From NCBI GenBank assembly GCA_014058405.1, contig CP047423.1:4014501-4078500 (forward strand): 64,000 nt of DNA, read 5' to 3'. Position 1 is the stretch's first letter. Each line of letters starts with the position of its first letter. Under the pieces are notes generated by a model. It did not search any database. It had not been told where the DNA came from and saw nothing but the letters and a program-made list of their open reading frames with translations. The stretch is from Candidatus Nitrospira kreftii. GTDB taxonomy: Bacteria; Nitrospirota; Nitrospiria; Nitrospirales; Nitrospiraceae. Below are positions 62,923 through 64,000 of this stretch, in pieces. Made by a program: the position numbers and the translations under genes.

Positions 62923-63264
62923 CTACTGGCGTTGTGCGTCCAACATACTATCTTCAGCGGTGTATCCGTGAAGATAGGGAGAGTTGCCACCAAGCGTATA
63001 CATCGGACGATTAATCCCGTAATCAAACGCATGGCCAATCGGGTGCAGAATAAACCCAACCCACCGAAGCGGATGATCACTGATGGCCGATCCGGCGGCT
63101 GGGGATGAATAGACCAAGGCGGTGCTGTCCAAGATATTATAAATACTCGTGGGAGGCATGTATCCCTTGTCCTCTGCGCCCACACCTGGTTGATGCGTCG
63201 TACTACAGCCGGTTGCGACCAGAGCCAAAATCATCATCCCGACAACCGTCAACGTGGCTTTCAT
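62923..63264 (-). CDS. Small lipoprotein, 113 aa
   Basis: Signal MKATLTVVGMMILALVATGC with lipobox VATGC (Cys20); GAGG lies before the ATG. The mature part of 93 residues has DHPLRWVGFILHPIGHAFDY and INRPMYTLGGNSPYLHGYT, with several His and aromatic residues. No family recognised. Own terminator downstream, so likely a single-gene transcript. Confidence 0.75.
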   Translation of the reverse strand: MKATLTVVGMMILALVATGCSTTHQPGVGAEDKGYMPPTSIYNILDSTALVYSSPAAGSAISDHPLRWVGFILHPIGHAFDYGINRPMYTLGGNSPYLHGYTAEDSMLDAQRQ

Positions 63265-63439
63265 AATGTAACCTCGCTTGGTTCGAGCCTCATCATGGAA
63301 TTCTCAAAATCGGACATGTCTAAAGACAATTAGAAGTGTAGCCGACGTCTCCATTTCTGTCCAGAATTTGGAGCTCCGGACTGCCTGAACAACGTCAGCA
63401 TTTCTATAGACTTAGAGGGGAAGTGCGGTGTATGCAAAT

Positions 63440-63484
63440 GGTGGGCGATACAGGTATCGAACCTGTGGCCTCTTCCGTGTGAAT
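63440..63484 (-). other. 3' fragment of tRNA-Val(CAC): attachment-site scar
   Basis: The minus strand reads TTCACAC-GGAAG-AGGCC followed by the T-arm ACAGG-TTCGATA-CCTGT, acceptor strand ATCGCCC and ACCA: everything of a tRNA-Val from the anticodon loop (CAC) to the CCA end. Upstream of the loop the expected stem CTTCC is replaced by TTACA, and no D-arm or 5' acceptor is present. Sharp loss of identity at the anticodon stem is what a tyrosine-recombinase crossover into a tRNA gene leaves behind. By orientation, chromosome lies to the left and the element to the right. Confidence 0.75.
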
Positions 63485-64000
63485 GTAAAAAGATAGGTTT
63501 TCGAATTGGCTCGCTGTTGCAACGGTTTCCCCACTTATCTGAGCAATTGCAAGGAGTTCGGAGTGTTCTACTTATTCTACTGAGTTCAGTGCTTCTGGTG
63601 CTTCCTGATCGGTTCTGGCACAAAAGCAGCCACAGTATAAGTACGTATATTTGCAGGCCCGTAGAAGGTTGCTGACTCGAGGTACAGAGAGTAACGCCGA
63701 TTACTTCATTCCGACGGCGCTAACTAAACGTGAATAGAACCCGTGTTTAATTTCGACTGCGACCCCATCACGCACTTTACCTGGAGACTCATCGTACCTG
63801 CTTTTGAGGTGCCCCTAAAACCCGTTCCAGCTCACCGCAATCCCTTTCTACCCTTGCCCTATTAACCAGCAACGCCTGCATCAGACGTTCGCTTATAACT
63901 TTATTAGTCCAGTTTGAAGGCAGGTATCTTCCTCAGCTCGGGGCCCATGAAATCTGTGGACGGAGTTGACACTGACGGCTTCACGGATGATTTTTTATGG
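63485..64000. other. Left end of a putative integrated element (mostly unassigned)
   Basis: 516 bp right of the tRNA scar. No integrase or insertion sequence is recognised in it. The minus strand has protein-like but broken frames: one ending QVEIK-type residues (SPGKVRDGVAVEIKHGFYS, stop at 63701-63703), one with MQALLVNRARVERDCGELER just upstream in another frame, and the tail at 63904-64000. This looks like small or decayed mobile-element genes. Confidence 0.4.
63904..64000 (-). CDS. Possible C-terminal end of a protein (5' end outside window)
   Basis: Open to the right edge on the minus strand: about 31 residues, including STPSTDFMGPELRKIPAFKL, then TAA at 63904-63906. Basic and protein-like in composition, but too short to assign. 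A short + strand frame from ATG 63948 covers the same bases and is the competing reading. Confidence 0.28.
   Translation of the reverse strand, partial: HKKSSVKPSVSTPSTDFMGPELRKIPAFKLD

Follow-up and report, generated by a model that had tools for sequence, protein, structure and literature searches.

Islands inserted at tRNA genes were mapped by Islander as regions bordered by an intact tRNA gene and a displaced 3' fragment of it, with a tyrosine integrase inside. The sections of that account consulted (PMC4383910) give a 3' fragment in 3,760 of 3,919 islands and anticodon-centred sites in 2,083, describe island sizes that peak at 13.6 and 39.9 kb, and mention integrases (Mx8, SSV) that reach across attP. 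A second point of comparison is the group of integrative and mobilizable elements with Rep_trans-type proteins, which the portions of PMC5704250 and PMC5357655 consulted portray as small elements with a tyrosine integrase and variable cargo.

The locus described here reaches into the right edge of the window, a stretch of 64,000 nucleotides that covers bases 4014501-4078500 of the single 4,125,728-bp contig of Candidatus Nitrospira kreftii. The sequence leaves very little doubt that a 7.8-kb integrative genomic island occupies the tRNA-Val(CAC) gene of this Nitrospira-type chromosome. Its borders and integrase are those of an Islander tDNA island, and its direct repeats, 7,763 bp apart, have the orientation and fall within the 2-200 kb length used there. 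As far as the consulted sections of PMC4383910 define such islands, the locus agrees in every feature tested (tDNA, fragment, integrase, orientation and length), and the island is therefore ordinary in kind, although at 7.8 kb it is small beside the peaks at 13.6 and 39.9 kb. The type of insertion is well known, and this is a very clean case of it. Modest novelty lies in the particular island and its small family, which is compact, swaps cargo, occurs in Nitrospira and has an integrase frame that enters the tRNA. Among the matches listed for Nitrospira literature on genomic islands, integrases and defence, seen as titles and the beginnings of abstracts, this island family is not described.

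Table 1. Features of the island and its surroundings, with complete sister islands. Plain positions are window coordinates, which equal L005 coordinates plus 60000.
Feature	Position	Strand	Evidence or remark
Chromosomal gene left of the island (lipoprotein-like by eye, 113 aa)	62923..63264	-	Outside island; empty-site marker
Displaced 3' fragment of tRNA-Val(CAC), island left end (attL)	63438..63483	-	Exact 46-bp direct repeat, maximal extension
Conserved left arm, no gene assigned, proposed attP arm	63484..63763	.	Alignment with L124, L125, L094, L007
PD-Lambda-5 A gene, 493-codon frame	63914..64000 in window, to L005:5395	+	PADLOC PDLC03998, E 1.8e-119
PD-Lambda-5 A, full frame	L005:3914-5395		ORF list
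PD-Lambda-5 B, D12-class adenine methyltransferase	L005:5438-6298		PADLOC PDLC04018, E 2.3e-114
ATPase/STAS-like protein	L005:6339-7670		HATPase and STAS-like DUF4325 domains
PemK/MazF-like toxin	L005:7993-8310	-	
61-aa partner ORF of MazF-like gene	L005:8291-8476		No family match
HTH_17 protein	L005:8867-9157		Excisionase-family match
Protein with two CxxC pairs (by eye)	L005:9154-9606		No confident family
HTH_17 protein	L005:9784-10137		Excisionase-family match
Tyrosine integrase	L005:10124-11245		PF00589, E 7.3e-44
Intact tRNA-Val(CAC)	L005:11202-11276	-	ARAGORN; Rfam 71.9 bits
Complete sister island L133			5,650 bp; exact repeats
Complete sister island L134			5,125 bp; exact repeats
Complete sister island L135			7,042 bp; exact repeats
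Complete sister island L139, Candidatus Nitrospira defluvii			6,481 bp; exact repeats
Complete sister island L142			3,558 bp; exact repeats
Complete sister island G042/L094			~4,680 bp; exact repeats

Over 46 bp, the window fragment exactly reproduces the part of tRNA-Val(CAC) that runs from the anticodon loop to CCA, and ARAGORN makes no tRNA call there. A search of the whole contig finds one other exact copy, at G000:C1:4085701-4085746 (L005:11201-11246), which lies to the right of the window edge and forms the 3' part of the intact tRNA-Val(CAC). The two copies are in direct orientation, the match extends over exactly 46 bp, and by naive chance any one 46-mer would be expected about 2e-21 times. 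The first-pass annotation had recognized the fragment and its identity but gave it 45 bp. From this lone displaced piece of tRNA in raw sequence it correctly foretold an island running rightward past the window, an integrase, and an intact tRNA at the far end, found 7.8 kb away. The integrase, expected beside the intact tRNA, even overlaps it.

Cargo genes, also anticipated, are present between the copies, as seen in the ORF list and in Pfam and PADLOC results. Cargo GC is 0.487, below that of all 233 sliding 5.2-kb windows in the left flank (minimum 0.502, mean 0.529), in keeping with the change in DNA character that had been claimed for the region beyond the fragment. The broken small frames reported with it correspond to a conserved ~280 bp to which no gene is assigned; beyond this, an intact frame of 493 codons begins. 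Its start is listed as TTG at 63914, and an in-frame ATG at 63947 is the likelier one. This frame and its neighbor on the island match the A and B components of PD-Lambda-5 in PADLOC.

The first reading had left the choice between island and prophage open. Searches of nine of nine island proteins against Pfam, and of six of the nine against PHROGs, returned no phage structural, packaging or lysis families, and because no structural family matched, we favor an island over a prophage. A prophage or a helper-dependent phage satellite in place of a non-viral island is thus an unlikely reading, even though the tyrosine integrase and the excisionase-like proteins match phage families in PHROGs, PD-Lambda-5 A has distant matches in nine phage records, and PD-Lambda-5 is reported, in the part of PMC10482375 consulted, to occur frequently on prophages in Actinobacteria.

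PD-Lambda-5 was found experimentally as an anti-phage system in E. coli, according to the section of PMC9519451 consulted. The island resembles that system in that its A and B genes adjoin and match strongly in PADLOC, and differs in that the system is a predicted one, carried on a tRNA island of a Nitrospira-type genome. PD-Lambda-5 A/B and the MazF-like toxin probably protect the host from phage and help keep the island. PD-Lambda-5 A is rare, occurring in 4 of 395 genomes of the phylum. The ATPase/STAS-like protein has a strong match in two of the 395, the source genome and G057, whose relative (L213) is 83% identical and interrupted by a stop. It matches phage-protein family phrog_5816 (E 2e-150), while tblastn finds no phage relatives; the family is rare and phage-linked. 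The idea that its gene forms a third part of PD-Lambda-5 is unsupported: it occurs in 2 of 395 genomes versus 4 of 395 for PD-Lambda-5 A, and follows A/B at none of the other Nitrospirota PD-Lambda-5 loci examined, with no tblastn match in regions L127-L130, which come from three other genomes, each with A and B.

The first-pass annotation had proposed a comparison with relatives that lack the insert. The chromosomal lipoprotein-like gene left of the fragment has no Pfam family and is present in 54 of 59 same-genus genomes; the five without it (G007, G020, G036, G049, G051) were left out of the gap count. The gap from this gene to tRNA-Val(CAC) is 148-326 bp in 47 of the 54 genomes. It is larger in four, at 7,936 bp here, 4,832 bp in G042, 4,339 bp in G058 and 1,168 bp in G035, and the site is rearranged or split between contigs in three (G012, G018, G031). 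G004 and G012 have two copies of the gene, one of which was entered for each. In four relatives (L095-L098), the match to the left flank runs to the end of the 46-bp block and the match to the right flank starts at its beginning, so that the two overlap only across the block, by 45-46 bp. These are empty sites. An unoccupied site in relatives, a feature we added to those used by Islander, is therefore on record for this island.

Three of these genomes show further arrangements. In G013, a MAG, the lipoprotein gene adjoins a complete tRNA on one contig and the integrase adjoins the tRNA on another, with 105 bp shared; the genome was entered among the 47 with a short gap despite the second contig with its occupied site. 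The two contigs would be explained if the population mixes chromosomes with and without the island, although assembly effects may also lie behind them; they bear on excision and re-integration only indirectly. G058 (L092:1035-5253) has a decayed island at tRNA-Val(CAC) with a degenerate left fragment (28 of 30 bases), a broken integrase, and cytochrome-like genes (by eye) between them. In G035 (L093:1982-12676), a 1-kb remnant of an island consists of the fragment and an integrase cut at its N-terminus. After it, tRNA-Val(CAC), trmFO and the genes that follow occur twice, ~8.2 kb apart, either because the region is truly duplicated in tandem or because the assembly is mixed.

Such doubling bears on the view that takes the fragment for a chance or degenerate remnant of a tRNA, left by local duplication or rearrangement with no integrative element involved. 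tRNA genes are prone to repeats, and G035 has its tRNA-Val and trmFO region duplicated downstream of its remnant. Against this stand the exact 46-bp direct match, the integrase lying over the intact copy, the relatives with empty sites, and sister islands of the same geometry with other cargo. We regard a chance or degenerate tRNA as ruled out by the exact repeat, the integrase and the empty sites, and a local duplication without an element as vanishingly improbable.

Because the frame of the island integrase terminates within the 46-bp block, its final codons double as tRNA sequence. Integrases 92.8-100% identical over the aligned part occur in 7 of 79 same-genus genomes, the source genome included, and those of G035 and G077 are truncated. 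Each of the seven loci is at tRNA-Val(CAC) with the stop codon within the tRNA. None of the other 11 same-genus loci listed, at 57.8-66.4% identity, was seen at tRNA-Val(CAC): seven loci contain a different tRNA and four contain none. A second set, the best 80 of 176 loci from named genomes, may leave out the window's own record and shares at least three loci with the same-genus set (G013, G075, G067). All 12 of its loci with integrase identity of at least 83% (L132-L143) are at tRNA-Val(CAC), and all are titled Nitrospira save one titled Nitrosospira. Integrase and tRNA overlap by 44 bp in 11 of the 12, the frame of L142 being broken earlier. Among the 68 remoter loci, L163 and L184 are also at tRNA-Val(CAC); the remainder lie at other tRNAs or have no tRNA within reach. 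Elsewhere in the source genome, with the present locus counted, the integrase frame enters a tRNA gene in four of eight integrase loci examined (L012-L019), namely at tRNA-Val(CAC), Lys(TTT), Thr(TGT) and His(GTG); tRNA-Thr(TGT) has an integrase on either side.

The arrangement suggests how the insertion may have come about. A predicted circular form of the island would carry an attP in which a 46-bp block, identical to the 3' half of the tRNA and also coding for the integrase C-terminus, is bordered by the conserved left arm. The integrase would recombine attP with the tRNA gene (attB), perhaps aided by the excisionase-like HTH protein encoded just upstream, and excision may follow likewise. 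The original 3' half would thereby be pushed 7.8 kb away to become the fragment in the window, and the element would provide a replacement, so that the tRNA stays intact.

The proposed attP arm is 89% identical over 275-280 bp in L133 and L134, partial in L094, confined in L135 and L142 to about the first 50 bp, and not detected in L139. Rfam (E up to 1) finds only the tRNA in L005:3300-11400, with no structured RNA in the arm. Apart from a single weak 9-bp tandem and a single 10-bp inverted pair, a search for integrase arm-site repeats gave none. A related segment of the same genome (L007; G000:357035-350524) has the left arm and the HTH/CxxC genes in common with the island, and its similarity does not begin until the last 11 bases of the block. 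If this segment was inserted by the same route, crossover probably takes place at the block's anticodon-loop end; the one case that points to this position has lost its integrase and sits inside another tRNA island. That island, at tRNA-Glu(CTC), extends from L010:19273-19350 to L007:8211-8242 (G000:C1:349273-358242), with an integrase-like frame adjoining the intact tRNA and an exact 32-bp 3' fragment ~8.9 kb off. Besides the related segment, it contains a gene for chlorite dismutase (PF06778) at L007:7093-7911. The 32-bp fragment is overlapped by another integrase, which is split, and islands may therefore stand in tandem there.

Six further complete islands, of 3.6-7.0 kb, have exact tRNA repeats at both ends and different cargo. 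L124, which shares its contig with L133, encodes GIY-YIG-like MUG113/T5orf172 domains, and L125, which shares its contig with L134, encodes a trypsin-like protein that matches LmuA weakly. L094 has an amidohydrolase, L139 a protein with a TIR domain and L135 one with a PIN domain.

Rep_trans proteins in sister islands extend the likeness to the integrative and mobilizable elements, as these appear in the consulted portions of PMC5704250 and PMC5357655; the present island differs from them in having no match to a Rep or relaxase family. Of 80 related integrase loci (the best 80 of 176), 36 have a Rep_trans match (E up to 1e-6), in most cases immediately upstream of the genes for HTH protein and integrase. 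At tRNA-Val(CAC) it occurs in 5 of 12 loci: L135, L136, L137 (end only), L139 (frame broken) and L140. The island may, as a tentative reading to which we give somewhat less than even weight, derive from a rolling-circle integrative element with Rep, HTH and integrase modules at tRNAs, its Rep lost or replaced in this branch, because the slot held by Rep_trans in related loci is occupied by the HTH/CxxC pair here and in the closest sisters. Besides the island's own lack of a Rep or relaxase match, the comparison of a sister Rep with MobT weighs against it, at 59.8 bits, far under the 600-bit cut-off. Loss or replacement within a rolling-circle lineage is the direction in which we tentatively read the pattern. 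On such a history the island would now need a helper or be stranded. Rolling-circle descent refines the island reading and is not opposed to it.

We give about an even chance to a broader picture, in which compact (3.6-7.8 kb), cargo-swapping, Nitrospira-centered islands dedicated to tRNA-Val(CAC) arose from rolling-circle integrative elements, keep their last integrase codons within the tRNA, shuttle defense-like genes (PD-Lambda-5, TIR-domain, GIY-YIG-like, trypsin-like/LmuA-like) between nitrifiers through one slot, and switch target tRNA as the integrase diverges. Nitrospira are important in nitrification and wastewater treatment, and their genetic manipulation is hard. The sites, some occupied and others empty, form a clean set in which one slot takes varied payloads, and they offer material for the study of defense-gene movement among these bacteria. 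In Nitrospira sp. SJ521 (L140:572-5059), related lipase-like and lipoprotein-like genes (by eye) alternate in tandem upstream of the tRNA-Val(CAC) integrase, in what looks like an expanding cassette array.
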